Positions 5,591-29,297 of a DNA stretch of 64,000 bases are shown here, piece by piece. The notes under the pieces were generated by a model, which worked only from the letters and a program-made list of their open reading frames with translations, searched no databases and was not told the origin of the DNA. The stretch is from positions 1-64,000 of the forward strand of contig LPNY01000158.1 of the NCBI GenBank assembly GCA_001655195.1. The letters are read 5' to 3'. Numbering within the stretch: position 1 is the stretch's first letter; every line of letters begins with the position of its first letter. The DNA is from Arcobacter sp. EP1. GTDB lineage: Bacteria; Campylobacterota; Campylobacteria; Campylobacterales; Arcobacteraceae. A program made the translations under genes and the position numbers.

Positions 5591-5718
5591 TTTCTAGATT
5601 CTTCCTTTTGTGAATTATCAACATATACTGGGTCCGCTTTATAACCACAACCTGTCACACCTAATAAAAAAGCTGTTATAATACAGCCATGAAAAAAGTT
5701 AACGATATTCTTACTCAT
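5587..5718 (-). CDS. Small LptM/YifL-like lipoprotein (43 aa)
   Basis: A short reading frame begins ATG at 5718 (MSKNIVNFFHGCIITAFLL) and continues GVTGCGYKADPVYVDNSQKE to a TGA that overlaps the nadB GTG. It has a hydrophobic segment followed by the lipobox LGVTGC and a mature peptide starting CGYKADPVY. This resembles the tiny LptM (YifL) lipoproteins, whose mature end begins CGxKxP.Y and which assist LptD assembly in enterobacteria. The gene overlaps the start of the divergent DciA-like gene by 30 nt, which makes the exact start uncertain. The assignment rests on the lipobox, motif and operon overlap. Confidence 0.6.
   Translation of the reverse strand: MSKNIVNFFHGCIITAFLLGVTGCGYKADPVYVDNSQKEESRK
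5677..5682 (+). promoter_or_regulatory. -10 box close to the DciA-like start
   Basis: TATAAT lies only 6 nt before the ATG at 5689 and no AGGA-like ribosome site is present. If this is the real -10, transcription would begin at or near the A of ATG, giving a leaderless mRNA. The same bases are inside the opposite-strand lipoprotein gene, so the match could be chance. Confidence 0.35.
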
Positions 5719-6108
5719 TTGAAATATAGTCCTGAATTTAAAAAGATTAACACAAATAATACAATAGAAAAGTTAATAGATGCTTTACCCTTAAAACTTA
5801 AAAAGGGAGTCAAATTTGCCTATATAAAACGGCAAACACTTTTCTTTGTCCTTACCCATCCTGTGTTTAAAATGGAATTTGAGTATAACAAGAGTTTAAT
5901 AAAATCACTTTTAAAACCAGCCAACATAGCTAATGTGGATGATGTTCAGTTTTTTGTTACCAATAAAATTGAAAAAAAAGAAGAAGTAAAAAAAGAGGAA
6001 AAACCCTCTTTTAATGAAAGATCCTACGGACTGTTTGAAAACTTTGCAAAAGATGAAAAAACATTTAAAATTTTTGAAGAGATACGACAACTGATTAAAA
6101 AAGCTTAA
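5689..6108 (+). CDS. DUF721/DciA-like protein
   Basis: Basic 139-aa cytosolic protein. The N-terminal part (about 1-95) shows the helix-helix-strand pattern of DUF721/DciA proteins. It opens with a helix, continues LIDALPLKLKKGVKFAYIKRQTLFFV, then has a strand ending HPVFKMEFEYNK and a helix of Leu/Lys. DciA is the replicative helicase loader or operator in bacteria lacking DnaC/DnaI. The C-terminal part is a Lys/Glu-rich linker (about 98-110) and a short helix. It diverges from the lipoprotein-nadB-nhaD operon and converges with the YgjP-type gene, overlapping by 14 nt. The family call is moderate, from pattern only. Confidence 0.6.
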   Translation: MKKVNDILTHLKYSPEFKKINTNNTIEKLIDALPLKLKKGVKFAYIKRQTLFFVLTHPVFKMEFEYNKSLIKSLLKPANIANVDDVQFFVTNKIEKKEEVKKEEKPSFNERSYGLFENFAKDEKTFKIFEEIRQLIKKA

Positions 6109-6676
6109 GTTGATTATCCAAAAACTTATAGTTAGGACAATATTCTTGCACTAAACCCCAAAAACGTTTGGAATGGTTTTTATGTTTAATGTGCGCCAAT
6201 TCATGAATAATGACATACTCAATAACTTCTAGAGGATACTTCATCAACAAAATATTTAGGCTAATTGAGTTTTTTGAAGAGCATGAACCAAAACGAGTTT
6301 TATTCTTTCGAAATTTTAATGCTGTTGGGAAAAGTTCCATACGATTGGCATGTTTATCCACTAAATTAGGTAAGAGTTCTAAGGCTCTCGCTTTATAAAA
6401 GATATCACTATTTTCAACCTGCTCTTTTGGAAGGGGTTTCCCCAGATAATAAAAGTGACTTTCGAGGTCTTTATCTTCTAATCTTTTAAGATGTTTTTCT
6501 ATCCAATTTCGCTTTTTTTCAATGAGTGCTTTTGCATCCTCCAAACCAAAAAATCGATTCGCTTTTATTTGTAGTTCATTTTTATTTAAAATGCGTAAAT
6601 AACAGTGTTTCATCCTTGCCTTTTGCACTAAATTAACAGTAACTGAACAACTGTTCACCTCAATCTTAAAATCCAC
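6095..6676 (-). CDS. YgjP/SprT-like zinc metallopeptidase
   Basis: The C-terminal domain has the zinc motif HELAH with a third ligand His in KNHSKRFW, the arrangement of the YgjP-like (DUF45) metallopeptidase family. In the longest frame (GTG at 6709, 204 aa) these are His169, His173 and His179. I prefer the GTG at 6676, 11 codons in, because AAGGA lies 5 nt before it while 6709 lacks a ribosome site. The protein is cytosolic and its substrate is unknown. It overlaps the DciA-like gene tail-to-tail. Confidence 0.85.
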   Translation of the reverse strand: MDFKIEVNSCSVTVNLVQKARMKHCYLRILNKNELQIKANRFFGLEDAKALIEKKRNWIEKHLKRLEDKDLESHFYYLGKPLPKEQVENSDIFYKARALELLPNLVDKHANRMELFPTALKFRKNKTRFGSCSSKNSISLNILLMKYPLEVIEYVIIHELAHIKHKNHSKRFWGLVQEYCPNYKFLDNQLKLF

Positions 6677-6769
6677 AACTTTCCTTAAGAAATTTTTTGA
6701 TAAAATCACGCACTACATAATATTGACACAATAGTAGCATATTGAAAATTATAGTGAGGAATAACGCAG

Positions 6770-7942
6770 ATGAAAATTGCAAAAAGAATGGAGAAATTAT
6801 CTCCGTCAGTAACAATGGCTATTACTGCTTTAGGTCGGGAGCTTAAAGCACAAGGTAGAGACATTTTAAGTTTTAGTGCGGGGGAACCTGATTTTAACAC
6901 ACCTGAGGTGATTAAAGAAGCAGGAATTGAAGCGATCAGAGAAGGTCACACTAAATACACAGCAGTTGAGGGGATTACTGAAACAAAACAAGCAATTATT
7001 AATAAACTTAAACGAGATCACGGTTTAGAGTATGAACTGGGTGATATTGTTATTAGTAATGGTGCAAAACACTCACTGTTTAACCTATTTCAATGTTTAA
7101 TTGAAGCAGGTGATGAAGTTATTATTCCAGCTCCATACTGGGTAACGTATCCTGAGCAAGTAAAATATTCAGATGGTGTACCTGTTTTCATTGACACTGA
7201 TGACACAACAAGTTTTAAAATTACACCAGAGCAACTTCAAGCAGCAATTACGCCTAAAACTAAAGTTCTTTTATTAAATACACCTTCTAATCCAACGGGT
7301 GGTGTTTATTCTAAAGAAGAGTTACAAGCACTAGGTAAAGTATTAGAAGGGACTGATATTTTAGTATTCTCTGATGAGATGTATGAAAAAATCATGTTTG
7401 ACTCAAAAGAGTTTACAACTGCTGCGGAAGTAAGTGAAGATATGTTCAAACGAACAGTTACAATCAATGGTTTAAGTAAATCAGTTGCAATGACTGGATG
7501 GAGATTTGGATATTTAGCTACGCCTCACAAAGATCTTGTAAAAGCGATGATTAAACTTCAAGGGCAATGTACTTCTAATATCAACTCAATTACCCAACAT
7601 GCATCTATTTTAGCTTTAGAGGGTAAAGCAGATGATACTATTGCAATGATGCGAGGTGAATTTGAAAAACGAAGAGATGTTGCTATTGAAAAGTTCAATG
7701 CAATTGAAGGAATCTCTTGTGTTAAACCTGATGGTGCATTTTACCTATTTGTAAATATCAAAGGTGTTACATCAGACTCAATGAAATTCTGTGCAGACTT
7801 ACTTGAAAAAGAAGGTGTGGCAGTTGTACCGGGACTTGCTTTTGGTACAGAAGGGTACTTTAGATTCTCATTTGCTACAGATTTAACTTCTATTGAAGAA
7901 GGAATCAGACGAATTGAAAAGTTCGTAAAAGAGAACTACTAG
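6770..7942 (+). CDS. aspC: Aspartate aminotransferase (class I)
   Basis: PLP-dependent transaminase (390 aa) interconverting aspartate/2-oxoglutarate and oxaloacetate/glutamate, linking amino-acid and TCA metabolism. Landmarks are the substrate-binding SAGEPDFNTP (36-45), NTPSNPTGGVY (170-180), the aspartate in FSDEMYE, and the Schiff-base lysine Lys237 in SKSVAMTGWRFGY. GTGAGGA precedes the ATG. The cation-efflux gene follows after 4 nt, so the two are probably co-transcribed. Substrate specificity within the AT class I group is inferred from overall similarity to the bacterial aspartate aminotransferase subgroup. Confidence 0.93.
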   Translation: MKIAKRMEKLSPSVTMAITALGRELKAQGRDILSFSAGEPDFNTPEVIKEAGIEAIREGHTKYTAVEGITETKQAIINKLKRDHGLEYELGDIVISNGAKHSLFNLFQCLIEAGDEVIIPAPYWVTYPEQVKYSDGVPVFIDTDDTTSFKITPEQLQAAITPKTKVLLLNTPSNPTGGVYSKEELQALGKVLEGTDILVFSDEMYEKIMFDSKEFTTAAEVSEDMFKRTVTINGLSKSVAMTGWRFGYLATPHKDLVKAMIKLQGQCTSNINSITQHASILALEGKADDTIAMMRGEFEKRRDVAIEKFNAIEGISCVKPDGAFYLFVNIKGVTSDSMKFCADLLEKEGVAVVPGLAFGTEGYFRFSFATDLTSIEEGIRRIEKFVKENY

Positions 7943-7946
7943 TTCC

Positions 7947-8846
7947 ATGACATTACAACGTAAAGCTACCGTTGTTTCTACAAGCGTAGCGGCAATTCTT
8001 ACAATTATTAAACTGGTTGTAGGGATTGCTAGTGGGTCTGTTGCAGTACTAGCATCTGCAGTAGACTCAGTACTAGATATGTTTGTATCACTTTTTAACT
8101 ATTTTGCTATTTCAAACTCTGAAAAACCAGCTGATCATAACTTTAACTATGGACGGGGAAAAATCGAAGCTCTAGCATCTGTAATTGAGGGAACAATTAT
8201 TGCCGTATCGGGTCTATTTTTACTCTATCAAGCAGTTAAAAAAGCTATCAATGGTGATATTTCAAGTTATATTGGTGAATCTCTTACTATCATGGTTATC
8301 TCACTTATTATAACGGTTGGTCTAGTAATTTACTTAAACTATGTTGCAAAAAAAACAAATTCAATGGTGATTAAAGCTGATGCTTTACACTATAAAACAG
8401 ATGTTTATACCAACGCCGCTGTTTTAATATCACTTTTACTAGTTAACTTCACAGGTTATGAAATTATTGATGTTCTTGTGGGTGGAGGAATTTCGCTTTT
8501 TATTATTTATTCAGCCTATGAACTCATTCAAGAGGGTGTTTTAGTTTTACTTGACCGCTCGGTGGATGAAGAACTTGTTGAAAAAATCGTTGATGTGATT
8601 AATAGTGAAGAGCGTATTAACACCCATCATTTACTTAAAACACGAGAAGCAGGACATCAGACTTTTGTGGATGTACACCTCGTATTTGATTGTCTAATCA
8701 CGCTAATGGATGCCCATAGAGTGACAGATAGAGTTGAGGATAAGATTCATAAGCTTGATGAACAACGAGAATGGATTATAACAATTCATATGGATCCATA
8801 TGATGATTTTGAGATGAACGAACAGGGAGAAATCACCCATGCTTAA
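7947..8846 (+). CDS. Cation diffusion facilitator (FieF-like)
   Basis: Inner-membrane divalent-metal/proton antiporter with about six hydrophobic helices followed by a cytosolic domain (299 aa). The transport-site residues of the FieF/YiiP type are present: Asp40 and Asp44 (SAVDSVLDM) and His148/Asp152 (LHYKTD). The C-terminal domain has the ferredoxin-like metallochaperone pattern with HH and DVHLVFD segments that bind regulatory metal in YiiP. It likely exports Zn2+ or Fe2+; the sequence alone does not fix the metal. It lies 4 nt after the aminotransferase and overlaps the rhodanese gene by 8 nt. Confidence 0.93.
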   Translation: MTLQRKATVVSTSVAAILTIIKLVVGIASGSVAVLASAVDSVLDMFVSLFNYFAISNSEKPADHNFNYGRGKIEALASVIEGTIIAVSGLFLLYQAVKKAINGDISSYIGESLTIMVISLIITVGLVIYLNYVAKKTNSMVIKADALHYKTDVYTNAAVLISLLLVNFTGYEIIDVLVGGGISLFIIYSAYELIQEGVLVLLDRSVDEELVEKIVDVINSEERINTHHLLKTREAGHQTFVDVHLVFDCLITLMDAHRVTDRVEDKIHKLDEQREWIITIHMDPYDDFEMNEQGEITHA

Positions 8847-9270
8847 AAAACTACTGACACTATTGATGTTTGCACCACTACTTTATGCACAAGTCAATTT
8901 TCAAACAGCTAAACTTTATAAAGCAGATATCAGTGCGAAACAAGCATATGAAATGCAACAAGAGGGAGTTGTTCTCATTGATGCACGAACAAAAAGAGAG
9001 TTTAATACTCTGCATCCTAAAGGTTCAATTAATATTCCTGTCTTTTTTGAAAAAAATGGAAAGCGGGTTTTTAATCAAAACTTTCCTAATGAAGTCTATG
9101 AACTTCAAAAAAAGAACCTCAATACAAAACTTATTTTAATATGCCGTACTGGCTCACGTACAAAACTGGCTTCTAATATCCTAGCAAACCTTGGTTTTAA
9201 AGAAGTTTATAACGTACAATACGGTTTTGCTTTAGATTGGACAAAAGTTAATCTCCCTGTTGCAAAATAG
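8839..9270 (+). CDS. Periplasmic rhodanese-domain protein
   Basis: 143 aa with a Sec signal peptide (about 1-17, cleavage after LLYA) and one rhodanese domain. The active-site loop is CRTGSR at 102-107, giving the catalytic Cys102; the domain entry is VLIDARTKREF. Periplasmic single-domain rhodaneses are common in sulfur-metabolising Campylobacterota, where they carry sulfane sulfur, but the partner here is not visible. The start overlaps the end of the cation-efflux gene by 8 nt, so translation is probably coupled. Confidence 0.9.
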   Translation: MLKKLLTLLMFAPLLYAQVNFQTAKLYKADISAKQAYEMQQEGVVLIDARTKREFNTLHPKGSINIPVFFEKNGKRVFNQNFPNEVYELQKKNLNTKLILICRTGSRTKLASNILANLGFKEVYNVQYGFALDWTKVNLPVAK

Positions 9271-9335
9271 CCCTTTATAAGTCCTATTTTACTTAACTTT
9301 TTGTAAAGTATAGTATATAAAGAATAGGACACTCT

Positions 9336-11684
9336 ATGAACTACATAAAAATTCTAGGGGCAAATGGAAGTAAAGCAAAATCATATGCCAGCGCTTCTTT
9401 TCAAATATTTAAAGATATTGTTGTTGATGCAGGAAATATTGTTAATGCCTTAGGCACTGACGCACAATATATTAATCATATTTTTTTAACACACTCTCAT
9501 GCAGAACATATTTCTGATTTACCTTTTGTTATTGAAAGTTACTTTGAAAAACGTACACAACCACTCACTATTTATGCACTTAAAGAGACAATTGAAACCT
9601 TAAAAGAGCACTCTTTTAATAACAAAATTTGGACAGATTATACAAAAATAAAATTGCTCAATAGTGATAAAAATGCTCTTATTTTCCAAGAAATTAAACT
9701 TCATGAAACTATAAAACTAGGCTTTTATAAAATTAAAGCAATTGAAGCTAATCATATTAATGGTTCATGTGGTTATGTGGTAATGAAAGACAACCTAGGT
9801 TATTTAATAAGTGGAGACACATACTGCAACGATGCCCTTTGGAATGAGCTCAATAACAATACAAAAATTAAGTCGTTGATTATTGAGTGTTCATTTCCAA
9901 ATCAAATGCACCAATTAGCTAAAGAGAGTCTTCATTTAACACCTAACTTACTCAAAGATGAATTAAAAAAGCTACAACGAAAGGATATTCAAATCTTTCT
10001 TTATCATCTAAAACCCTCTTATAACGAAACACTTATTGAAGAGATTCAAGAAAATAAGATTTTACAAAATGGAGGGAAAGTTTTAGAAGATGGGGATGTA
10101 ATACATATTGATACGGGTGAAATCGAGACTAATATGATTAGCCATGATAAATTTGAGCGTATCATGGAAATCAATCTTGCTCTGTCTCATCAACTTAATA
10201 AAGACAAACTTCTTGAAATGATTCTTCAATTAACACAAGAGCTTACCCATGCTGATGCAGGAACACTCTATATTGTTTCCAAAGATAAAAAGTATCTGGA
10301 GTTTCAAGTAGTACAAAACAACACATTAGATATTCAAATGGGTGGAACCAAAGGTGACATTACTTGGGATAAACTACCACTATATTTAGAAGACGGTACA
10401 AAAAATCTCACAATGGTAGCAGTTATGTCTGCACTACAGAACCAAATAATTAATATTGAAGATGTTTATTACGATACAAATTATAACTTTGAAGGAACAA
10501 AAGCCTTTGACAGCTCTACAGGATATCGCTCTACTTCTATGTTAGTCATACCAATGGTTAACCATGAGAATGATGTTATTGGAGTATTACAGCTAATTAA
10601 TAAAAAAAATATGGGAGATCATGAGACTATCAATTTTGATGAGGCTGATGAACGTATATTAAAAGCACTTGCAGGACAAGCAGCTATGGCATTGACTAAT
10701 ACACAACTGATTAATAGTTTAGAAGAGTTTATTGATGCCTACATTGCAACCATTGCCCAAGCCATTGATGCAAAATCACCCCATACAAAAAATCACATTG
10801 TCAATGTTGCAAAGATTGCTTCACTCTTGGCGAATGCAATTCATGAAGATAACACTATTTATAAAAATATACGATATAGCAAAAATGATTTTAAACAGAT
10901 AGAAATAGCAGCATGGATGCACGATATTGGTAAAATTTCTATCCCTGAATCAATTATTGATAAACCAACTAAACTACAAACTATTGTGGATAGGATTGAA
11001 TTGATTAAAGAACGTTTTGAAATTTTAATCCGCGATACGAAAATTGCTATTCTTGAACAAAAGCTCTCACAAGAAGAAGGCAAAAATCAAATAGCTCAAT
11101 TTCAAGATGATTTAGCCTTTTTAGAAGTTGCTAATATTGGTGGTGAATATATGGGTGATGATAAAATTGAACGCATCCATAAAATTGCACAATATACTTA
11201 TATAAAAAATGGCCAAGAAACTCCTTTTTTATCAAAAAATGAAGTTAATAATCTCATTATTCGAAAAGGAACTCTCACAGAAGAAGAGAAACGACTTATG
11301 AATGGTCATGCTAAACTCTCCTATGATATGCTCTCTGCACTTCCTTTTCCTAAAAAATTTAGCGATGTTTTACATATTGCTGCAAATCATCATGAGAAAC
11401 TTAATGGAAAAGGATACCCAAGAGGACTTGGTGAAAAAGATCTTGTTCTAGAAGACCGTATTATGATACTAGCCGATGTCTTTGAAGCACTAACCGCATC
11501 AGATCGTCCTTATAAGGATGGAAAAAAGCTTTCTGAAGTCTTTAAAATACTTTCATTTATGGTAAAAGATGAAGAGATTGATGGGGAATTGATACGTTTC
11601 TTTCATAAACATGAAATATTAAAAGAGTATTCAAATGAACAGCTAAAACATACTCAAATTGATGAAAGTAGACTACTATATTAA
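9336..11684 (+). CDS. MBL-fold / GAF / HD-GYP signalling protein
   Basis: 782 aa, no signal peptide, so cytosolic. Residues about 1-260 are a metallo-beta-lactamase fold of the phosphodiesterase/RNase Z type with HSHAEH at 53-58 (Glu replaces the usual Asp of HxHxDH), a later ISGDTY and an ECSF strand. Residues about 270-450 are a GAF sensor domain. The rest is an HD-GYP domain: His in KSPHTKNH (about 480), HDIGK at about 530, and HHEKLNGKGYP at about 685. A helical insertion of over 100 residues follows HDIGK. HD-GYP domains hydrolyse cyclic-di-GMP; the MBL domain could act on a second cyclic nucleotide. The next gene, an adenylate cyclase, starts immediately after the stop codon. Confidence 0.9.
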   Translation: MNYIKILGANGSKAKSYASASFQIFKDIVVDAGNIVNALGTDAQYINHIFLTHSHAEHISDLPFVIESYFEKRTQPLTIYALKETIETLKEHSFNNKIWTDYTKIKLLNSDKNALIFQEIKLHETIKLGFYKIKAIEANHINGSCGYVVMKDNLGYLISGDTYCNDALWNELNNNTKIKSLIIECSFPNQMHQLAKESLHLTPNLLKDELKKLQRKDIQIFLYHLKPSYNETLIEEIQENKILQNGGKVLEDGDVIHIDTGEIETNMISHDKFERIMEINLALSHQLNKDKLLEMILQLTQELTHADAGTLYIVSKDKKYLEFQVVQNNTLDIQMGGTKGDITWDKLPLYLEDGTKNLTMVAVMSALQNQIINIEDVYYDTNYNFEGTKAFDSSTGYRSTSMLVIPMVNHENDVIGVLQLINKKNMGDHETINFDEADERILKALAGQAAMALTNTQLINSLEEFIDAYIATIAQAIDAKSPHTKNHIVNVAKIASLLANAIHEDNTIYKNIRYSKNDFKQIEIAAWMHDIGKISIPESIIDKPTKLQTIVDRIELIKERFEILIRDTKIAILEQKLSQEEGKNQIAQFQDDLAFLEVANIGGEYMGDDKIERIHKIAQYTYIKNGQETPFLSKNEVNNLIIRKGTLTEEEKRLMNGHAKLSYDMLSALPFPKKFSDVLHIAANHHEKLNGKGYPRGLGEKDLVLEDRIMILADVFEALTASDRPYKDGKKLSEVFKILSFMVKDEEIDGELIRFFHKHEILKEYSNEQLKHTQIDESRLLY

Positions 11685-13856
11685 ATGAAAAATAAAGTCC
11701 TACAAAAAGTATTTATCTACAGCAGTGCAAGTATAGCTGTAGCTATATTCTTGAGTTTCATCTATATTTTTTATCCTAAACTACCTGATTCTATTGACAA
11801 TAGAATGCGTGATTATCTTTTTAATGTTCGAGGAGAAATTCCCAATACTAATAATGTTGTTATTGTTGATATTGATGAAAAATCCCTTCAAAGTTTGGGA
11901 CAGTGGCCATGGAGTAGAAATCATGTATCAACCATACTTCAAAATTTAACCCAAGCGCAAGCTGCCTTAATTGCATTCGATGTTGTTTTTGCAGAAGAAG
12001 ATAGAAGTTCACCCCATAAAGTTCTTAATTCTTTAAATATTAAACAAGATAATATTCCAAACTATGACAAAATTTTAGCACAAACCATCGCACAAACACC
12101 TACTATCTTAGGGTACCAGTTTGAACTTGAAGAAAAAGAGCATTTAAATAAAACTGCTCCTTCTATTCCTGCTGTATTTATTGAAAAAAACAAAAATAGA
12201 GACAGTAACTTTTTAATCAAAGCTCATGGAACAATTATCAATATTCCAACCCTACAGGAGAATTCCTACTCCAGCGGATTTTTTAATAATATCCCCGATG
12301 ATTCAGGTATTATTCGAAGTGTCCCATTAATCATTTCTTATGATGATGTCATCTACCCTGCACTATCTCTTGAAATTATGCGTATTATCACACAATCAAA
12401 CAAAGTTAATATCAACTACAGTAATGAAGGAGTGGAATCTATTTCTTTAAATGAGATTACCATACCAACTGACAGATATGGTCGACTATTAGTAAACTTT
12501 AGAGGCCCAGAAAAAAACTTCCCTTATTACTCTGCAATTGATATCTTTAATAATAGTTTTGATAAATCTACAATTGAAAACAAGATAGTTCTTATTGGGG
12601 CATCTGCAGCAGGTCTTTTAGATTTACGGGCAACCCCTTTTGAATCAATTTATCCAGGAGTAGAAGTACATGCCAATGTTATTGATAATATCATTGCAGG
12701 TGATTTTATTTATAAAGCTTCATGGGTTGATGGTCTAAATCTCATTGCTATTTTTCTACTAAGTTTTATTATCGTATTTACAATAGCCTATACCCCATTT
12801 ATTCTTAACCCTATTATTTCAATAGGCTTTATTGCTGTTAGTTGCTTTTTTGTTTATTGGCAACTTTTTAATGAGGGCTTAGTATTTAATCTCTTTTTTC
12901 CAATAGCTACTATTATTCTGAGTGCAATTGTTGCAACCCTCTTAGACTATTTTTACGAGATAAAACAAGAAGAAGCCATCAAGAAAAAGTTTGCTTCTAA
13001 AGTATCCAAAGAGGTTATGGATAACCTTTTAGAAAACCTTGAAGATAATAGTTTTCAAGCTATGGAAAAAGAAGTAACTGTATTTTTTAGTGATGTTCGT
13101 GGATTTACACAAATTTCTGAAAAAATGAAAGATGCCCGTTCACTTATTAGTTATCTTAATGAATATATGGAGCCTATGAGCAATATTATTACAAAATACC
13201 AAGGAACTATTGATAAGTACATTGGTGATGCGATTATGGCTTATTGGAACGCCCCTGGTGATGTAAAAAATCATGCAGATAAAGCAGTACAAGCTTCATT
13301 AGAACAAATTGCGTATTTAGAAACTCTTAATAAAGAGTTTGAAAAAAACAACCAACCATTTATTGATATTGGTATTGGGTTAAATACAGGAGAAGCAGTC
13401 GTAGGAGAGATGGGAAGTATCGGACGAAGTGATTATACAGTTATTGGTGATTCGATTAACTTAGGTGCTAGGTTAGAGTCACTATGTAAATATTATAATT
13501 CACGACTTAATATCTCTAACTTTACAAAAGAGCGATTAAAAGAGAGCTATATTTTTAGATTTTTAGACTTAGTAACAGTAAAAGGGAAAGTGGAACCCAT
13601 TGAAATTTGGCAAGTCATTGACAAAGGCATTGCAACAGGAGTACTAAAAGAAGAGTTAGATAGTTATCATCAAGGCATTGAACTTTATAAGTCTTCAAAT
13701 TTCTCACAAGCCTTAGAAATTTTTCAAACACTTGAAGCAAGTGAATACAAAACAAACTTAAATATATACAAACTCTATATCCAACGATGTGAACACTATT
13801 TAGAAGTACCTCCAGAAAATTTTAATGGAGTATATGAACATACAACTAAAGGCTAA
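11685..13856 (+). CDS. CHASE2-domain adenylate cyclase
   Basis: 723 aa. An N-terminal helix (about 8-28) leads to a periplasmic CHASE2 sensor (about 30-340), three membrane helices (about 345-425) and a cytosolic class III cyclase (about 455-640). Metal aspartates are Asp470 (FFSDVRGF) and Asp515 (YIGDAIM). Lys511 sits at the adenine-specifying position, and Thr585 (DYTVIGD) replaces the Asp of mammalian enzymes, as in class IIIb adenylate cyclases. The tail (about 650-723) is TPR-like. It makes cAMP by inference. ATG follows the preceding TAA with no gap, so expression is coupled to the MBL/HD-GYP gene. It converges on the exporter/cargo pair at 14.3-18.8 kb. Confidence 0.93.
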   Translation: MKNKVLQKVFIYSSASIAVAIFLSFIYIFYPKLPDSIDNRMRDYLFNVRGEIPNTNNVVIVDIDEKSLQSLGQWPWSRNHVSTILQNLTQAQAALIAFDVVFAEEDRSSPHKVLNSLNIKQDNIPNYDKILAQTIAQTPTILGYQFELEEKEHLNKTAPSIPAVFIEKNKNRDSNFLIKAHGTIINIPTLQENSYSSGFFNNIPDDSGIIRSVPLIISYDDVIYPALSLEIMRIITQSNKVNINYSNEGVESISLNEITIPTDRYGRLLVNFRGPEKNFPYYSAIDIFNNSFDKSTIENKIVLIGASAAGLLDLRATPFESIYPGVEVHANVIDNIIAGDFIYKASWVDGLNLIAIFLLSFIIVFTIAYTPFILNPIISIGFIAVSCFFVYWQLFNEGLVFNLFFPIATIILSAIVATLLDYFYEIKQEEAIKKKFASKVSKEVMDNLLENLEDNSFQAMEKEVTVFFSDVRGFTQISEKMKDARSLISYLNEYMEPMSNIITKYQGTIDKYIGDAIMAYWNAPGDVKNHADKAVQASLEQIAYLETLNKEFEKNNQPFIDIGIGLNTGEAVVGEMGSIGRSDYTVIGDSINLGARLESLCKYYNSRLNISNFTKERLKESYIFRFLDLVTVKGKVEPIEIWQVIDKGIATGVLKEELDSYHQGIELYKSSNFSQALEIFQTLEASEYKTNLNIYKLYIQRCEHYLEVPPENFNGVYEHTTKG

Positions 13857-13867
13857 CCTTAGCCTTT
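13848..13867. terminator. Hairpin between convergent units
   Basis: AAAGGCTAA-CC-TTAGCCTTT overlaps the cyclase stop codon and lies between two convergent reading frames. The T-tract is weak in both directions, so termination strength is uncertain. Confidence 0.45.
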
Positions 13868-14123
13868 ATTGTGCTTTAAATTGGATGTCTTTAATTCTCA
13901 CATCTTCAAAATCTGTTCTTGTTTTCATTCCTAAATCTGTTCCTTCAACATCTAAATCAGTATTTTCAAATGTCATTACATCACTCTATGTAGAAGGATT
14001 TGTTATATTAGTATTGATAGTTACTGGATTATCCGTAGTAGTATCGGTATCGTAAGTTAACTCAATTTCATTGTTATCATTAATTTTCCCATGAAGATTT
14101 TTAACTACATTATGCGAGTGCAT
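13866..14123 (-). pseudogene. Amber-interrupted small reading frame
   Basis: On the minus strand a frame opens with ATG at 14123 and reads 45 codons (MHSHNVVKNLHGKIND, then NEIELTYDTDTTTDNP). It hits TAG at 13986-13988 and then continues in the same frame for 39 more sense codons (SDVMTFENTDLDVEG, then KTRTDFEDVRIKDIQF) to TAA. Both halves have similar acidic, Asn/Thr-rich composition, which suggests one gene broken by a single nonsense mutation. There is no clear ribosome site. I recognise no family. The rest of the gap (14124-14257) is AT-rich with nothing identifiable. Confidence 0.4.
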
Positions 14124-14257: not shown

Positions 14258-15901
14258 TTAGAAATTTTGAATATAGTTTAGCTTAATCGTATATTTACTA
14301 TAAGGGGAAGATTCATGATTAGAATCTTGCTTTGAGTAAGTTCCCCCTGCACTAATAATTGATTTTTCTCCAAACTTTCGCTGTAAATTTAAGGCAAAAT
14401 CTTTCTTCTTATCACGTTTTCTAGATAAAAAGTTGACATCTTTTTCGACATCTAAAGTCTCTTTATAAAGAACACTACTTTGTAAAGAGTAAAATTTAGT
14501 AAACATATAATTATTAGCGACTCCTAAACTATAATACTCTGTAGAGACATCTGTTCTTGATTCTTCACGCTCTAATTCTTTTCCTAGATTACCACTAAAT
14601 GTAAATGTTGATTGTGGTGATATTACATATTTTAAGCTATTTTGCCACTCCACAAGATGTGAGTTTCGTGTTGGCTCGTTTTTATAATTAATTTGTCCTA
14701 GTTTTAATCCAGTTGTATATAAAAGTGTTTTATCTAAAACCTTTGTGATACTTGGAGTAATGTAAAAATTATGTTGATAAGGGTGATGTCCTAAAAAGAC
14801 TTTTTCAAAATTAAAGTTAAGTGCAATTTTATAATCTTTTGTATAATAAGTTGGTTGAAAAACTGTAGAAATATAATGAATATCTTTTTCTTTATAATCA
14901 TCATATTTTAGATTTAATAGTGTCAGATTATTTTCTAATGCAAAATTATCATCAACTTTATACTTATAAGAAAAAATACTAGCAAGTTGATATATCATTG
15001 TACTATTTTTTTCGCCACTATTTGAAAGTTCAATGTCAGTATCAAGTGTTGGATTGTAAATACTAAAAGATCCTGCATTGGGAGAATTACTAACATTAGA
15101 ATCATAAATCATGCCTAACAAAGCCGTTATATTAAAAAAATGTTTTGTCTGTTTTTGTTTAATTGCTTCAACATTTGCAATAACTTTTTCTTGAACTTTT
15201 AAAGGTAATTCTTCGCTTGCAAGTACACTATTAAACTCAGTTAATGCCTGTGAGAGAAGTCCCATTTGTAGATAAGTCTGTGCTAACTCTAACCGCACTC
15301 GTATATTATTTGGTTCTGCAATTAATATTCTATCGTAAGCACTAATAGCAAATTCATACTTTTTTGTTTCATATGCACTGCGACCTAAGTAATAATTTAT
15401 TAATATGTTTCCCATATCATTAAAGAATAGCTTATTAAAAAGAGTATAGGCCTCTTCGTAGCGTTTCTGTTTATAAATAGATAATGCCTGTTGGTAGTCT
15501 TTTGACTGTGGGACAATAGTTTTATTTGTATTTTCAACTTTAGTGGTGGCAGGTTTTGATACAACCTTTTCATCTATTTTTGTAGCAACTGTAACATTAG
15601 AAGATTTAATATCAGAACTGTTAATTAAGAATGCATTTTTAGTATGCTTGCGTATATCCTTTAAGGCTTTTTTTCTATCTTTATTTTCAATATTAACAAA
15701 GTAGTAGATATAGTATTGTCTCTTTTCAGTATAGGTATCATAGATTTTTTCATAATTACGTAGTTTCCATAAACTACTTAGTTTCTTGACAACTGCAACT
15801 TGAATTGCTGATTTGGTAGTATCAATTTGAGAAAGCTCAACCGGTTTAGCAAAAGTACCTACTATACTAAAAAATGTTAAATATAAAATTCGTATTATCA
15901 T
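14258..15901 (-). CDS. TPR/beta-barrel outer-membrane exporter, DUF560 (Slam/T11SS) type
   Basis: 547 aa with a signal peptide (about 1-18), a SPOR-like segment (about 45-95), a Thr/Lys linker and TPR repeats (about 135-255). The C-terminal half is an outer-membrane barrel of alternating aromatic strands ending IQNF. The junction is diagnostic: a TPR helix ending LASEELP, a helix VQEKVIANVEAIK, then the first strand with YDSNVSNSP. This matches the DUF560/Slam pattern (LP..V...I...L, then GYDSNVN). Slam proteins (type XI secretion) carry proteins with TbpB-like barrels across the outer membrane. It overlaps its upstream neighbour, the likely cargo, by 4 nt (ATGA). Confidence 0.8.
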   Translation of the reverse strand: MIIRILYLTFFSIVGTFAKPVELSQIDTTKSAIQVAVVKKLSSLWKLRNYEKIYDTYTEKRQYYIYYFVNIENKDRKKALKDIRKHTKNAFLINSSDIKSSNVTVATKIDEKVVSKPATTKVENTNKTIVPQSKDYQQALSIYKQKRYEEAYTLFNKLFFNDMGNILINYYLGRSAYETKKYEFAISAYDRILIAEPNNIRVRLELAQTYLQMGLLSQALTEFNSVLASEELPLKVQEKVIANVEAIKQKQTKHFFNITALLGMIYDSNVSNSPNAGSFSIYNPTLDTDIELSNSGEKNSTMIYQLASIFSYKYKVDDNFALENNLTLLNLKYDDYKEKDIHYISTVFQPTYYTKDYKIALNFNFEKVFLGHHPYQHNFYITPSITKVLDKTLLYTTGLKLGQINYKNEPTRNSHLVEWQNSLKYVISPQSTFTFSGNLGKELEREESRTDVSTEYYSLGVANNYMFTKFYSLQSSVLYKETLDVEKDVNFLSRKRDKKKDFALNLQRKFGEKSIISAGGTYSKQDSNHESSPYSKYTIKLNYIQNF

Positions 15902-18849
15902 TGAGTTTTTGTTGCCTTAAATACACCATAAGCTCTGTGAGCACTATCATTTAATGTTTCAAAGTTTCCACCAACACTTTTCAAGCTTCCATCTCCATAA
16001 AAATTACCATTGAAGCTCCCAGACTGGCCTGTTCCACTCATTGTACCAGAAAAACCTGAATTAGATACTGAAGTTGAAGTCATATCCAAATTCCAAGTAC
16101 TACTTGTAGATGCGAACTTCATATACGATTTATTAGCACCAGTCGTTACTAAATTATTAACACCACCACCTAAATCAAAGTTCATAAAAACTTTATTCGT
16201 AGTATCATCCATATTAATATTCTCAATGGCTGTAACATCTGATCCACTAACAATTTTCACAAAACCAATAACTTTTCCATTAAAATGATATTCCGTAGCA
16301 TTTGTAGCATTTAATAGAGCATCAATGGTACTAGAAGAGGTCTCAATACCAGCTACCCATGTTGATAAGGGGTTGATATGGTAATCATTATTCCCATCAA
16401 CATCTGCACTCCAATACCCCCATGAACTATCATCATCACTCATCATAGGATTATCATTAGAATCAAACATCACAAAATTATTACTTGAATCATACCCACC
16501 ATCAGGAACTGCAATAAGATAACTCTGCGTTGCATCTGTTAACAATTTCTTTACTCCACCAACTTTATAAAAACTATTTGAACTAACTGTTCCTAAAGCT
16601 CCAAATATATCTTCACTTACATAATATGCACTAGATGCAGCTAATGTTCCTGCAAATTCTAAAGCTGCATAATCAGTCGGATTTGTTCCATCTTGATTAA
16701 TTTTTCCAGAACTAATCTCACCTGTTGCTTTATTGATATCAAAACTAATAATATCATCTGCACCACTTTGAGCATTAAATCCTATAGGTACAGCACTGTC
16801 ACTAACAGCTAAATAAGAGACAAGTCCAACTAAAGATGATGTTCCACTATTTGTTACACTATATGTTTTATCCGTTTGTAGAAATGAAGCATTTAACATC
16901 TCTTCTTTTTCACTTATTGTTCCAGAAGAACTGTATTGATATTTTGTTGAATCCATACTAGCAATAAGTCCTTGTCCCTCTGTTCCTTTTAACTCAATAA
17001 CACCATTAGAAGTTGTTGTAAAGTAATTATCATAGGTATCTAACGCTGTTGAACTTGCAGAGTATGTATATTCATTATCATAAAAGGTCATTGTTGTGCT
17101 TGTACCTGCAATAAAAGATTCAGCTCCTTTTTCAAAAACATCTTTATTTACATGTGTCAAGGAATTAAGTCCGTGATTGTAATACTGATAACCTACATCA
17201 GTAGAAAACTTAGAAGTATTTTTGAGTTTTCCCGTACTATCTTTGTCGATATTCAAGGTTTTATAGGTTTTATACATATAAACTTTAGAACTATTCATAT
17301 TTGAACTTACTAAATCCGTACCTACCACAAACATTTCATTTAGTCCACTTACAGAGGTATCTGAACTATCACTGTATGCAACAAAAAACTCACCTGTATT
17401 ATCAGCTTGAACTTTAAAGGTCGATGTTTTTGTAGTTCCATCATCTAATGTATAGTTTTGTGTAAATGTACCAATTTCAGAACTTCCAGTATACGCACCA
17501 ACAGCAGGCGTTGTAAATGCAGTGCTAGATGGAACACTTCCATTTATAACAAAATTTTCACTATCAAGAGTATCTTCAATCGTATCATTATATGTTAGGG
17601 TATCGTCTGATTTTGTAGCTTCAAAAGTTGTATCTTCATGTAAAAAGTTATCTGTATCTGAATCTGCTTCATAATAAACTCCTAAAAATTTACCAGATTG
17701 GGTATTTGTGTGTGTAGACGTTATAGTAGATTCTCCAACTTCTCCAGAACTACTAGCTGATGTTACATAAACTTTAAAGTCATCATCCGCTCTTAAATCA
17801 CTTCCTGCAACAGATACACTCCATGCTCCACTTGAACCGACAGTTGTACTGTAAGTTGTACCATTTACTTTAAAGGTAACCGTGTCCCCTGAAACAATAT
17901 CTCCACCACTTGCTGTTCCAGATACAGTCACATTTGATTGACCTTCGCTCACAGATACCACATCATCTGAAGTTATTGAGTTAACAGTAACTGTTCCTGA
18001 TTCAAAAGGTTCACTCTCATTAGTAGTATTATCTATATCAGGTATTGCATTTGAAATAGGAGGGGAAGAAGCAGTTGGGTTATTTGAACTATTTTTCTTT
18101 GCTACTTTTTGCTTTTTGTTATTTTTAGAAGTTTTTTGTTTTTTACTATTTTTTTTAGCTGTTTTTTCTTTTTTTTGTTTCTTTTTTGCAACTTTCTTTT
18201 TATCTTTTTTATTCTTTTTTGCTGACTCTTTTTTCTTCTCTTTTGATTTAGTTTCTTCTTTTTCTTCTTCTGGTTCTAAGCTATTTTCAAGCTCCTTAAT
18301 ATCATTGTTAGAAATATTTTTAGGTTGAGATGGAGATTTATTTAATTGGGTTCTGGTTAACTGATTTGCATTAACATTAACACTTTGTCCTGCTGATGTT
18401 ACTGTAATAGCACCTTGTGTACAGGCAATAATTTTTTGGTTACCAAGAACAATTGTTCCTCGAATACCAATGGCAGCACTTTTTGTTTGTAGTTTGAATT
18501 TTTCTTTATTAATTTTTCCAATATTACCAGTAATGGTTTTAAAAGCACCCTTAAAAAAGTTAAAGTTTGTCTTTGATGCTTTAGGTTGATTAACATCGTA
18601 AAGATATTCTTGGATATTTAAAGCAGAATTTTTACCTAAAGTAACAATTGTATTATCTTTAAAAATCAGCTGAACTTTTGCATTGGATTTTGTAGAAATT
18701 ATATCTTTTTCTTCAAGGTTGAGCCCTAAAGTGACAGTAAGTTTTTCATTAGCTCGCTCTATAGTGGCATCACCTACAACAGCAGATACTTTACCAATAC
18801 TTGCAAATACAGATGAAATGAAAAGCAATAAAAATATTAATACTCTCAA
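15898..18849 (-). CDS. Secreted FecR/Ig-like protein with TbpB-like C-terminus (probable exporter cargo)
   Basis: 983 aa. The signal peptide (1-16, cleaved after VFA) has no lipobox Cys. Residues 18-160 form a FecR-type domain with the hallmark AAIGIRGT (125-132). Residues about 185-255 are an extreme Glu/Lys then Lys-rich linker. Residues about 285-385 are a bacterial Ig-like module (VTVSGTASGG, VTFKVNGTTYST, GAWSVSVAGSDL). The long Ser/Thr/Asp-rich body (about 390-930) is predicted beta. The C-terminus reads SGSFNGNFYGDG, then VGGNFETL and GVFKATKTQ. This is the glycine/aromatic pattern of the TbpB-type 8-strand barrel that directs Slam-dependent export. The gene leads a two-gene operon with the exporter. 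The cargo role is inference. Confidence 0.8.
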   Translation of the reverse strand: MRVLIFLLLFISSVFASIGKVSAVVGDATIERANEKLTVTLGLNLEEKDIISTKSNAKVQLIFKDNTIVTLGKNSALNIQEYLYDVNQPKASKTNFNFFKGAFKTITGNIGKINKEKFKLQTKSAAIGIRGTIVLGNQKIIACTQGAITVTSAGQSVNVNANQLTRTQLNKSPSQPKNISNNDIKELENSLEPEEEKEETKSKEKKKESAKKNKKDKKKVAKKKQKKEKTAKKNSKKQKTSKNNKKQKVAKKNSSNNPTASSPPISNAIPDIDNTTNESEPFESGTVTVNSITSDDVVSVSEGQSNVTVSGTASGGDIVSGDTVTFKVNGTTYSTTVGSSGAWSVSVAGSDLRADDDFKVYVTSASSSGEVGESTITSTHTNTQSGKFLGVYYEADSDTDNFLHEDTTFEATKSDDTLTYNDTIEDTLDSENFVINGSVPSSTAFTTPAVGAYTGSSEIGTFTQNYTLDDGTTKTSTFKVQADNTGEFFVAYSDSSDTSVSGLNEMFVVGTDLVSSNMNSSKVYMYKTYKTLNIDKDSTGKLKNTSKFSTDVGYQYYNHGLNSLTHVNKDVFEKGAESFIAGTSTTMTFYDNEYTYSASSTALDTYDNYFTTTSNGVIELKGTEGQGLIASMDSTKYQYSSSGTISEKEEMLNASFLQTDKTYSVTNSGTSSLVGLVSYLAVSDSAVPIGFNAQSGADDIISFDINKATGEISSGKINQDGTNPTDYAALEFAGTLAASSAYYVSEDIFGALGTVSSNSFYKVGGVKKLLTDATQSYLIAVPDGGYDSSNNFVMFDSNDNPMMSDDDSSWGYWSADVDGNNDYHINPLSTWVAGIETSSSTIDALLNATNATEYHFNGKVIGFVKIVSGSDVTAIENINMDDTTNKVFMNFDLGGGVNNLVTTGANKSYMKFASTSSTWNLDMTSTSVSNSGFSGTMSGTGQSGSFNGNFYGDGSLKSVGGNFETLNDSAHRAYGVFKATKTQ

Positions 18850-25268: not shown

Positions 25269-26549
25269 TTATCGGAAGATATCAGCTGTTTGGTTTTTAT
25301 ACCAACCAACTGCATATTCAGCTTCTAACATTCGATATCCTTCATCAGCACCCATTGGACTAAGTCCTCCAGCACCTTTGACTTTTTTAATACCATCTTC
25401 GTGAGCTTCATAAACAGCTGCAACAGTAATACCATATGATGGTGAAATCAAACTATAACAAGTATTTGCTAATTTAGGAGGATTTACCACTGGTTTATCT
25501 TGCAACATTCGTGTAATCTGTAATGCTGCAATTTTCCCTTGAGAGTTTGCAGAGAATCCAGATTTTGGCATTTTTGATGCAATTGAAGCATCACCAATAA
25601 CATGAACATCTTTTACCATACGTGATTCAAATGTTTTCGTGTTTACTGGACACCAATCACCTTTTGTTAATCCTGAATCAAATGCTAACTGACCCGCTTT
25701 TTGTGCTGGGATATAGTTAAGAACATCTGCTTTAATTGTTTCATCTTCAGTAGTAACAGTCAATTTCTTTGGATCTACAGAAAGAACTTCTCCACCAAAT
25801 TCTGCCCCTCTCCAATCAATCATATCTCCGTAAAGTTTTTCCCATCCCTCTTGGAAAAGACCCTGTTTAGAGAATTTGTTTTTTTGGTCTAAAATGATAA
25901 TTTTAGAGTTAGGTTTGTTATGCTTTAAGTAGTGCGCTACTAAAGAGATTCTTTCATATGGCCCAGGAGGACATCTAAATGGATTTGGTGGTGGAACCAT
26001 TACATAAGTACCTCCATCTTTCATACCAGCAAGTTGCTCTTCTAAAAGTGTCGTTTGTGCTCCTGCTTTGTATGCATGTGGTGCATACATCTCCGAACCT
26101 TTTACGTACCCTTTTTCGTATTTAAAATCAATTCCTGGAGAAACAATTGCTTTGTGATATGGAATCATTTCTCCATTTTCTAAGATAACGGTATGGTTTG
26201 CACCATCAACTTTTTTAACTTTTGCATGTTTTACAATAACTTTATATTTTTTCGCTAATGTTTTGTAATCATGTTTAATGTAATCCAAGTCATTCATACC
26301 AGCAATAACAGTATTACCAAATGGACAAGTATAATAAACTTCATTTTGCTCAATTAAAATAACTTCTGTTTCAGGTGAGAATTTTTTAAGGTACTTAGCC
26401 GCAGTAGCACCTCCAAATCCACCACCAACGACAACAACTCTTTTTTTCTCTTTTGGTAAAGTTGCCACATTAGTTAAACTATTACAAGCTGCTAGTGAAA
26501 GTGCAAAAGAACCTACAAGTAATTTATTAAAATTTCTTCTATTCATCAT
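25269..26549 (-). CDS. fccB: Flavocytochrome c sulfide dehydrogenase, flavoprotein subunit
   Basis: 426 aa. A Tat-type leader (NRRNFNKLLVGSFALSLAAC) marks export of the folded FAD protein to the periplasm. The FAD site is VVVVGGGFGGATAAKYL. The redox cysteines of the FccB/SoxF family are represented by YYTCPFG and ANTCYSLISP; the end YRMLEAEYAVGWYKN is typical. It oxidises sulfide to sulfane sulfur, passing electrons to a cytochrome c. The upstream gene encodes a small cytochrome c 12 nt away, so together they form an FccAB-like pair. A SoxF role is an alternative, as no sox genes are in view. Confidence 0.92.
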   Translation of the reverse strand: MMNRRNFNKLLVGSFALSLAACNSLTNVATLPKEKKRVVVVGGGFGGATAAKYLKKFSPETEVILIEQNEVYYTCPFGNTVIAGMNDLDYIKHDYKTLAKKYKVIVKHAKVKKVDGANHTVILENGEMIPYHKAIVSPGIDFKYEKGYVKGSEMYAPHAYKAGAQTTLLEEQLAGMKDGGTYVMVPPPNPFRCPPGPYERISLVAHYLKHNKPNSKIIILDQKNKFSKQGLFQEGWEKLYGDMIDWRGAEFGGEVLSVDPKKLTVTTEDETIKADVLNYIPAQKAGQLAFDSGLTKGDWCPVNTKTFESRMVKDVHVIGDASIASKMPKSGFSANSQGKIAALQITRMLQDKPVVNPPKLANTCYSLISPSYGITVAAVYEAHEDGIKKVKGAGGLSPMGADEGYRMLEAEYAVGWYKNQTADIFR

Positions 26550-26561
26550 GATATGCCCCTC

Positions 26562-26858
26562 TTATCTTTTAACTTTTGAAAAGTAGTATGATACTTGTTC
26601 TAACTCAGCATCCGTGAACCCTTTAACATGTTTTTGCATCATTGTTCCTTTTCGCTGACCATTTTTATATTGCATCAAGATACTGTACATTGTACTTTTT
26701 CCCATTCCTGCAATCGTTGGTGTAACTGCTACTGACTTTCCATCTGTTCCATGACATGATGCACATGATAAAGACAACATTTTCCCTTGCAACTCATCGT
26801 AATCTACAGCATAAGAAAAACTGCATAAACAAAATAAAGCTAACGCTATTCTTTTCAT
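26562..26858 (-). CDS. Small periplasmic cytochrome c (FccA-like)
   Basis: 98 aa from ATG 26858, which has an excellent ribosome site (AAGGAGGGG); an upstream in-frame ATG (26945) lacks one. The signal peptide is about 1-17 (ends SYA). One class I heme site, CASCH, lies at about 32-36, and an axial Met is in GTMMQKH near the C-terminal part. It is the likely electron acceptor for the FccB flavoprotein encoded next, passing electrons to the respiratory chain. The gene leads the operon. Confidence 0.92.
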   Translation of the reverse strand: MKRIALALFCLCSFSYAVDYDELQGKMLSLSCASCHGTDGKSVAVTPTIAGMGKSTMYSILMQYKNGQRKGTMMQKHVKGFTDAELEQVSYYFSKVKR

Positions 26859-26945
26859 TGACCCCTCCTTCAAATCACTATCAATTTTAAATTCTCTTTC
26901 TAAAATAGGCGAATATTTTAGTAAAAGTTTGACTTGGATTTTCAT

Positions 26946-27217
26946 CTTTAAATCTTGACTAATTGATTAAAGATTCATAATTAAATGATACATATGAAGC
27001 GTAACATTAAAGTAGCAATTTAGTGACAGAAGTGACAAATTTCAAAATTTGTGTCATTTTAGTGACACTTTTTCATATAAGAATTTATAATTTGAAAAAG
27101 AGTCACAAAATTTATTAGTTGTAGTTATAACTTGTATATATTTTACTTATATTTATTGACTTTTTGAAAGTATATTTTATCACAGCAGATAAACTACTGT
27201 GACAAAAGTGGGTGTTT
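26946..27217. promoter_or_regulatory. fcc upstream region with inverted repeats
   Basis: The gap between the fcc operon and the chemoreceptor gene holds several possible operator repeats. TGACA-GAAG-TGACA lies at 27023-27036. GTGTCA-TTTTAG-TGACAC at 27051-27068 is a perfect inverted repeat. An imperfect larger inverted repeat spans 27033-27056. Near 27180-27202, TCACAG and CTGTGA form a hairpin just past the chemoreceptor stop that may act as its terminator. Which protein binds is unknown. Confidence 0.4.
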
Positions 27218-28735
27218 TTATAGTGATGCGCAGTTTTCTCGTTTTGTTTTTTGAATGGTCCAAAAAACATCAGAAATTGCTTTATCAATTTCTAGTGAAT
27301 TATCAAGCATACTTTGAACATTACCATTAGCATTATCTTCAATAATAGTTTGAACCCCTCGGTGTACATTTAAATGAACCTCTTTTAAATGATTCCAGTT
27401 TTCTGTTTTAGTAAAAGCTTTATCTAAACGTTCTTGCTCAATAATCCATTTACCTAAGTTACACTCTGTCTCTTTTTTAACTTGCCAAACTTTTTTAGAA
27501 TCTAACTCTTTATAATTACTATCTTTAAAATTAATATGGTCAAGTTTTAAACGATTAAGCGTAAACATCAAGTCAACATCACACACTTGTTCTTTAGCAT
27601 CTTTTATATATGTGGTATGTTGAACAACATCAACTAACTTTTGAGAGAGTTGTTCAATTTGAGAACTTTGAGAATTTATTTGAGCAGCAGCTGACGCATT
27701 GCGCTGTGTTGTTTGATCAAGTTCAGTAATAGCATCATTAATTTGTTCAATAGCTTGCTTTTGTTCACTACTTGCATCACTAACTTCTTGAATAATACCC
27801 CGTTGACTCTCAATTTTTTCATTTAGGACACTATATCCCTCAATCATATTTTGGGCGATTCCTTTTCCTTCTGTTGCACGCTCTTTTGCTTTATGAACAA
27901 TTGCCGTAATCTCTTTAGCAGCATCAGCACTACGGCTTGCTAAATTTCGTACTTCTTGTGCAACAACAGCAAATCCTTTACCAGCTTCTCCAGCTGTTGC
28001 CGCCTCAACAGCAGCATTAAGTGATAAAATATTGGTTTGAAAAGCAATTTGATCAATAATTGAAGTAGCTTCTTCAATGGAGCCAACTTCATTGTTAATT
28101 GCATCCATTGAGCTAAATGTACTGTTTGCCAAAGTTTCACCCTCAGTTGCTGAACTACTAACCTCTTTTGAAAGATGTGCCATCTTAGAAGTATTCTCAC
28201 TAGTATTAATAATAGTACTTGTTACTTCTTCTAAAGCAGCTGCTGTCTCTTCTAAAGAAGCCGCTTGTTCATTAGAAGCTTCTGAAAGTGTATTTGAAGC
28301 ATCTGATAGTTCTTTCATCTCTTGATGCAACTGTTTAGATGTCATATCCAATAATGCTAGAAGCTCAGAAATACTACTTCCAAGGGCCCTTATTCCTAAA
28401 ATAACAGAACCCATCTTTCCGCTTAAGTTATTAGTATCAACCGCATATTCAAAATTTGCATTCCCATATTCAATAAGAGTAGCGATACCACGATCTGCTA
28501 ACTCCGCATTATTTGAAAGTGCCGTATTTAGACTTGTTTTAATTCTATTCAGCCGTTCATCTTGACATGCACCTTTAACTGTTATTCCATAAAACCCTCG
28601 CTCAAATTTCTTTAAGACTTCACTGATTTCATTAAGGAGTTGATCTTCACAACTTTTCTCACCCTCAAGTTCCTTGATTCGTTGCTTCAATTGAGCAATT
28701 TCTTCATCTTTTGCTTTACTATTTCCAAAAAACAT
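27218..28735 (-). CDS. Soluble chemoreceptor with C-terminal zinc-binding (CZB) domain
   Basis: 505 aa without signal peptide or membrane helices, so a cytosolic receptor. An N-terminal coiled coil (about 8-45) and helical region lead to the methyl-accepting signalling hairpin with the tip [19 protein letters not shown] and [15 protein letters not shown]. The C-terminal CZB domain has the zinc pattern LDHINFK, CNLGKW and HLNVH. This layout is that of Helicobacter pylori TlpD, which senses oxidants such as hypochlorite through the zinc-bound Cys. It is adjacent to sulfide-oxidation and cytochrome genes, so an energy or redox taxis role is plausible. Confidence 0.93.
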
Positions 28736-29297
28736 AAAATTTCCTTATATCTAACCCTATAGACTTTTATTAAAATACACTTTATTACATCACATGCAAA
28801 TTCCAGAATAATTATATAATAATTTCACAAAATAACTATGTATTTTTTATTCATTTCAAAAAACTATAAAAATAACTTTTAATAACCCAAAAATAAAAAA
28901 ATTACATATTCTTATATCCTTGATATATTAAAGAATATAAGATAAATTTAACTTTATTAAAAAATAAGTTTCAATTAAAATAATATTTTATTTTTCTATT
29001 CTAAATATAGAATTATTAAAAAAATACTACTAATAATCAAAATTATTATTTTGAAATAAAAAAGACATACTGAATTATAATAAACAAGCGTCACAATTCT
29101 CGTCACAAAAAGAGAAAATTGTAAAATATTTTTTACTTAATTGAAAAAATAGAGAAAATTAGATTTATGTCAATTCAAGATTCATAATATTTTAGAGATA
29201 ATCTAAGTATTTATATTTCTTGTTAAATAAAAGTGACAAATTTAATCCCTTAAGAAAAAATAAGCTACCATATTCTTCCAACAAAAAAGGACATTGT
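28736..29297. other. AT-rich intergenic region
   Basis: About 560 bases without a credible gene between divergent chemoreceptor and cytochrome genes, extremely AT-rich with long A/T tracts. Paired GTCACA motifs lie at 29090-29095 and 29102-29107. No RNA gene is recognisable. Confidence 0.6.
29090..29107. promoter_or_regulatory. Paired GTCACA repeat
   Basis: GTCACA at 29090 and 29102, spaced 12 nt, inside CGTCACA-N4-TCGTCACAAAAA. It is nearly the same as the pair at 802-819, including the trailing A-run and AT-rich flank. Candidate direct-repeat operator, roughly 190 nt before the cytochrome gene. Confidence 0.4.

Follow-up and report, generated by a model that had tools for sequence, protein, structure and literature searches.

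An exporter-cargo gene pair in the analyzed window, i.e., the whole 64,000-nucleotide stretch of contig LPNY01000158.1 from Arcobacter sp. EP1, is part of a larger module with a CHASE2 adenylate cyclase and a cAMP phosphodiesterase. The earlier note on this DNA recognized the pair as a type XI secretion system (T11SS) with an FecR-containing cargo and missed both neighbours. We put the chance slightly above even that the four genes form a surface-to-cytoplasm module, in which the cargo would be displayed by the T11SS, while its FecR head would be retained and signal to the CHASE2 cyclase. The features are the following:

9336-11684, plus strand: class II cAMP phosphodiesterase with GAF and HD domains (HD-GYP type), 782 aa
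11685-13856, plus strand: CHASE2 and class III adenylate/guanylate cyclase (723 aa), encoded convergently to the pair (Pfam CHASE2, 3.6e-63; Guanylate_cyc, 4.4e-22)
13847-13868, plus strand: terminator-like stem 3' of the cyclase gene, between the convergent gene pairs
14258-15901, minus strand: predicted T11SS outer-membrane exporter (Slam/DUF560 family), 547 aa, ATG start (profiles of relatives, model, tblastn)
14264-15142, minus strand: modelled 14-strand outer-membrane barrel of the exporter, residues 254-546, with YDSNVSNSP at strand 1 (strand list of the model)
15149-15502, minus strand: predicted periplasmic TPR helices of the exporter, residues 134-251 (AlphaFold2, pLDDT mostly >93; Pfam TPRs)
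15512-15844, minus strand: extension at the exporter N-terminus, residues ~20-130 (missing in most relatives; low pLDDT)
15898-18849, minus strand: cargo with FecR head, Ig module and TbpB-type tail, 983 aa, TTG start
15901-16428, minus strand: predicted TbpB-type handle and 8-strand barrel of the cargo, residues ~808-983, presumed T11SS export signal (profile, fold)
17704-18003, minus strand: Ig-like extender module of the cargo, residues 283-382 (NCBIfam NF012196)
18010-18354, minus strand: Lys-rich, probably disordered linker of the cargo, residues 166-280 (sequence)
18355-18801, minus strand: FecR module of the cargo, residues 17-165, its most conserved part (profiles)
18802-18849, minus strand: putative signal peptide, cargo residues 1-16, without a lipobox cysteine (sequence)

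The exporter and cargo genes are both intact and are translationally coupled through an ATGA overlap, confirming the coordinates and the overlap reported previously. The earlier note had also placed the motifs of both products rightly, namely, the TPRs (Pfam TPR_19, 2e-9) and YDSNVSNSP where the first barrel strand begins in the exporter, and the FecR domain, Lys-rich linker, Ig-like module and C-terminal FNGNFYG, VGGNF and GVFK motifs in the cargo. Membership of the exporter in the Slam/DUF560 family, which the note had proposed, follows from its relatives and its structure, since the window protein itself is below the profile cut-off: taken alone, it has TPR matches, reaches 29.4 bits against TPR_Slam (PF24575; cut-off 35.2) and has no match to SlipAM (PF04575), so that the direct profile match is weak. 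Used alone as a query against genome contigs, it also recovered zero relatives, and these were found with a profile from a 12-row exporter alignment. TPR_Slam matches 32 of the 34 relatives, and SlipAM matches 7 of the 34 at the level of Arcobacteraceae (best 2.7e-7) and 14 of 33 in a wider aligned set (best 3.4e-16). Moreover, tblastn with the single window sequence leads to plasmid genes annotated as ‘surface lipoprotein assembly modifier’, the best of which, in a Novosphingobium plasmid (6e-7), adjoins a gene for a TbpB-like cargo. The AlphaFold2 model (mean pLDDT 80) consists of helices at residues 134-251 followed by 14 long strands at residues 254-546. Its best fold match is BcsC, which is also a TPR-barrel protein, and the closest barrel among the matches listed is the 14-stranded OmpG (target-normalised TM-score 0.69). 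No Slam structure is present among the best 50 PDB fold matches listed, so the fold stands without comparison to a true Slam. Collectively, relatives and model support a Slam-type exporter by family, with export itself being predicted. PADLOC returned no match for the exporter and only a chance-level match for the cargo. In relatives of the exporter, SPOR (loci L048 and L046) or SH3_3 (L033) domains are found at the N-terminus, SPOR above the cut-off; their fusion ahead of the Slam-like TPRs suggests possible contact with, or binding to, peptidoglycan. A SPOR domain was suspected by eye in the N-terminal extension of the window exporter too and was rejected, with no significant match and low pLDDT.

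The cargo starts with a putative Sec signal peptide, clear by eye (MRVLIFLLLFISSVFA). A lipobox was found in none of the 78 FecR-headed proteins searched, which supports the previous view that the cargo is non-lipidated. The FecR domain (PF04773, 1.4e-9) spans residues 50-134. The layout of an FecR anti-sigma regulator, with a cytoplasmic anti-sigma domain and a transmembrane helix before FecR, is absent from the cargo, in which the FecR module immediately follows the signal peptide. Most cargo relatives have a similar low-complexity linker after FecR. The Ig-like module (NCBIfam Ig_like_ice, 56 bits) is 58% identical to region II of the ice adhesin MpAFP, and the part between this module and the tail is poorly modelled. 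The profile of the cargo C-terminus (A6) matches TbpB (4qq1, 1.8e-15), as the earlier note had expected, and further matches are chains of NHBA, LbpB, hemophilin and HpuA. Likewise, the best PDB fold matches of the modelled tail are TbpB (2.6e-5) and fHbp (7.7e-4), and TbpB_B_D matches 13 of 34 cargo relatives. The last ~180 residues are thereby predicted to form a TbpB-type handle and 8-strand barrel. Together with the SlipAM-positive relatives and the tblastn matches, this tail bears out the T11SS reading of the pair, and both structure predictions agree with it.

The pair resembles the known Slam/DUF560 T11SS, with TbpB, fHbp, hemophilin and NilC as cargo, in that a TPR and 14-strand barrel exporter is encoded by the cargo gene and the cargo ends in a TbpB-type handle and 8-strand barrel. 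Unlike in those systems, the cargo here appears non-lipidated and has an FecR head in nearly every locus, and the linked genes encode a CHASE2 cyclase and a cAMP phosphodiesterase rather than iron or haem uptake. The present pair also lies outside the Proteobacteria covered by the T11SS surveys (PMC8406197, PMC12282271). Neither survey contains FecR-headed cargo, consistent with the remark in the note that this architecture is not one its author knew from described cargo.

Next to the pair, the 782-aa product combines PDEase_II (3.4e-13), GAF (3.1e-12) and HD_5 (9.6e-34) domains. The phosphodiesterase part additionally resembles the anti-Pycsar protein Apyc1, though below the threshold (33 versus 50 bits). 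The terminator-like stem behind the cyclase gene is a consensus match only, two such stems being found versus 1.8 expected in shuffles. Seven cNMP-binding domain matches are present in the 3.0 Mb genome, and the proteins carrying them could be the receivers of cAMP.

To delineate the module, 71 non-redundant exporter loci were compared, several of which end early at contig ends. An FecR-domain gene is found in 66 of them (in 64 within 500 bp of the exporter), a TbpB-type tail in 55, a CHASE2 gene in 44 and the phosphodiesterase in 29. With dozens of relatives of both proteins encoded side by side, the pair is not due to chance. In the family of the window, including Arcobacter and Aliarcobacter, exporter relatives with a barrel are encoded by 47 of 104 genomes. 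All 47 of these encode CHASE2 versus 12 of the 57 genomes without the exporter (Fisher 1e-18, phylogeny ignored). In 39 of the 47, CHASE2 lies no more than 6 kb from the exporter. Six gene orders and orientations were seen among 39 loci, which speaks against mere frozen synteny. Module members are found in Campylobacterota, Desulfobacterota, Gammaproteobacteria and Alphaproteobacteria, with loci in Sulfurimonas, Sulfuricurvum, Hydrogenovibrio, Thiomicrospira and Desulfobacterota, and the module recurs in Thiomicrospirales. On plasmid pAMI5 of Paracoccus aminophilus and in Shinella, genes for a TPR-barrel protein, an FecR protein and a CHASE2 cyclase lie in a row; the TPR-barrel proteins match the family profile (E about 1e-32), and the FecR proteins have weak TbpB/FHBP_C matches at the tail. 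One locus (L051, genome G091) contains two tandem pairs, one of which includes a 2991-aa FecR-headed, TbpB-tailed cargo (3897-12872), a length compatible with an adhesin. At another locus (L173, G071:C1 ~25715-30815), adjacent exporter and CHASE2 genes are both degenerate with many stops, as if the module decayed as one unit.

A cluster of the same four genes in Campylobacterota, i.e., a CHASE2 adenylate cyclase, a phosphodiesterase, an FecR-domain outer-membrane protein and a TPR protein, was described in 2022 (mBio, PMC9239204) and suggested to represent a common pathway. In the part of that article available to us, the TPR protein is not named a T11SS exporter, nor the FecR protein a TbpB-tailed cargo, and the cluster is presented without a mechanism. 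Relative to that part, the T11SS exporter and cargo identity of the TPR and FecR proteins and the wider distribution are new.

A variable effector at the N-terminus, a pedestal and a barrel at the C-terminus make up described T11SS cargo (PMC12282271). By this precedent the cargo might be a T11SS adhesin of the usual kind, with the entire mature protein, FecR included, being brought to the surface or released, FecR acting as an extracellular effector and the cyclase cluster only controlling expression. The Ig module, as an ice-adhesin extender, fits such a protein, and the FecR modules have additional matches in leptospiral LipL45/Lsa33, for which the NCBI names are lipoprotein and surface adhesin. 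We nevertheless consider this reading rather unlikely, because no part of the cargo is better conserved than FecR (mean column identity of 49% versus 23% for the tail) and its divergence tracks that of CHASE2. Across 29 loci, pairwise divergence of FecR and CHASE2 correlates with rho 0.85, similar to CHASE2 and its own cyclase domain (0.83), versus 0.20 for the cargo tail and CHASE2, with partial correlations of 0.45 for FecR-CHASE2 and 0.18 for exporter barrel-CHASE2; all these values are uncorrected for the history of the species, and saturation is higher for the tail and exporter distances. An effector on the surface also fits poorly with the FecR-CHASE2 pairs that occur without an exporter, and with the resemblance of FecR to periplasmic retention modules. 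In the same genome, a second CHASE2 cyclase (G000:C182, L165 4717-7440) adjoins a divergently encoded 190-aa FecR protein without an exporter, which suggests that FecR-CHASE2 is a general pair; exporter-free pairing is also seen elsewhere in the family of the window and in Ruegeria. Conversely, CHASE2 is absent near the T11SS pairs without an FecR head at L167 and L180, which, in this small sample, fits a model of FecR acting with CHASE2. The cargo in the Campylobacterota locus L167 (2606-7430) is a 1165-aa non-FecR protein with a TbpB tail. In two further loci (L163 7474-8483 and L164 4992-5959), the FecR domain beside the CHASE2 cyclase is seemingly divided between two overlapping ORFs that both begin with a signal-peptide-like sequence, representing either a true split or a frameshift.

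Profile comparison shows a remote similarity between the N-terminal half of FecR and the module that retains LapA/MpAFP adhesins in the periplasm. The FecR module profile matches the MpAFP chain 5ix9 (5e-4), and the NCBIfam model retention_LapA (NF033682) matches all 30 FecR module members, the isolated module of the window scoring 30.3 bits, below the 50-bit cut-off. In hhalign, the FecR module scores 40.5 against ten LapA-like modules from relatives, versus at most 20.2 when the columns were shuffled 200 times. The cargo shares with the RTX adhesins LapA and MpAFP this N-terminal module and the MpAFP-type Ig extender, and differs from them in having an apparent Sec signal peptide, a T11SS tail in place of the T1SS/RTX C-terminus, and no TAAG site. 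It could be a retained adhesin without signalling, whose FecR head only anchors it in the exporter, as LapA is anchored in LapE, the cyclase being separate. The lack of a lipid anchor and the 2991-aa relative, besides the retention-module similarity and the adhesin-type Ig module, fit this proposal, which we judge improbable: it leaves unexplained both the co-occurrence with CHASE2 across phyla and the exporter-free FecR-CHASE2 pairs, and a LapG site is missing. No LapG-type TAAG site was found after FecR in the window cargo, nor was a conserved one. The same genome contains three Peptidase_C93 (LapG-like) genes, and the cargo was considered as a LapG substrate; this was rejected because of the missing TAAG-type site and because separate LapA-like giant adhesins explain the LapG genes better, LapA-type giant adhesins with TAAG sites being common in the family of the window (loci L130-L151).

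A precedent is found in Sinorhizobium meliloti, where a pSymB gene overlapping a CHASE2 cyclase gene by one base encodes FecR, TPR and a barrel-looking C-terminal region in one chain. The record carries no annotation for this gene ahead of the cyclase; from its position and from the literature, we take it to be nsrA. In S. meliloti, experiments show that outer-membrane NsrA is required for signalling through the CHASE2 cyclase CyaK in response to an outside signal that is a protein (PMC7529298, PMC13001267). The window module resembles NsrA-CyaK/CyaD in tying FecR, TPR and an outer-membrane barrel to a CHASE2 cyclase. However, NsrA is a single polypeptide without a TbpB tail, whereas in the window FecR and the TPR-barrel are on two polypeptides, the one with FecR also containing an exportable body. 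A further related arrangement, the Burkholderia BiofilmReg operon (PMC5192318), has a gene for a periplasmic FecR-domain protein beside a CHASE2 sensor, but its output is a histidine kinase, FecR is fused to LysM and there is no exporter.

NsrA, which unites FecR with TPR and a putative barrel in its single chain, raises the alternative that the TPR-barrel is a receptor rather than an exporter, sensing a ligand like NsrA while a wholly periplasmic FecR protein relays to CHASE2. Four loci (L077, L084, L093 and L104) in which a short FecR partner without a TbpB tail lies beside the exporter are in line with it. We give this alternative only a slim chance, given that the TbpB tail, a signature of T11SS cargo, is found in 55 of the 71 loci, that cargo of up to 2991 aa is ill-suited to the periplasm, and that SlipAM matches many exporter relatives.

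For the surface-to-cytoplasm module, we propose the following route. The cargo would cross the inner membrane by Sec, and the exporter would recognize its TbpB-type C-terminal barrel and move the tail to the cell surface together with the body, i.e., the Ig-like module and the variable middle. Like the related LapA-type retention modules, the FecR head most probably remains folded on the periplasmic side, with the disordered linker threading the exporter, which would double as the outer-membrane anchor of the lipid-free cargo. The periplasmic head would then pair with CHASE2, the sensor domain of the adenylate cyclase in the inner membrane, so that a signal sensed outside could alter cAMP, and the adjacent phosphodiesterase would reset it. 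The module may be viewed as a split NsrA-CyaK receptor whose FecR part gained an exportable body. The linkage of exporter, FecR and CHASE2 genes in varied orders and several phyla, the exporter-free FecR-CHASE2 pairs, the shared divergence of FecR and CHASE2 and the NsrA precedent favour this reading. Several points speak against it. The mature cargo of described Slam systems reaches the surface, its N-terminus possibly included. The tail-less short FecR partners and the missing LapG-type site also count against the proposal, as do the 8 of 47 exporter genomes without a CHASE2 gene within 6 kb. To the most specific version, namely, a trans-envelope sensor in which the periplasmic head of the T11SS-displayed protein directly gates the CHASE2 adenylate cyclase and the exporter serves as the anchor, we assign somewhat less than an even chance.

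If correct, this would add a further secretion route with periplasmic retention, after T1SS (LapA) and T5bSS (CdrA), and one coupled to cAMP. The authors of one T11SS survey speculated that such systems might bring sensor proteins to the surface (PMC12282271). The ligands of CHASE2 have been called unknown (PMC5192318), and signal transfer from NsrA to CyaK/CyaD is unsettled (PMC7529298, PMC13001267); here the module gives a testable answer, with the periplasmic FecR head as the CHASE2 partner and the outside part delivered by the T11SS. The findings extend T11SS to Campylobacterota and Desulfobacterota, add a common cargo architecture missing from the surveys (PMC8406197, PMC12282271), and propose parts and roles for the cAMP cluster that PMC9239204, in its available part, presents without a mechanism. 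For these bacteria, the module may represent a way to sense the outside world through a secreted protein.
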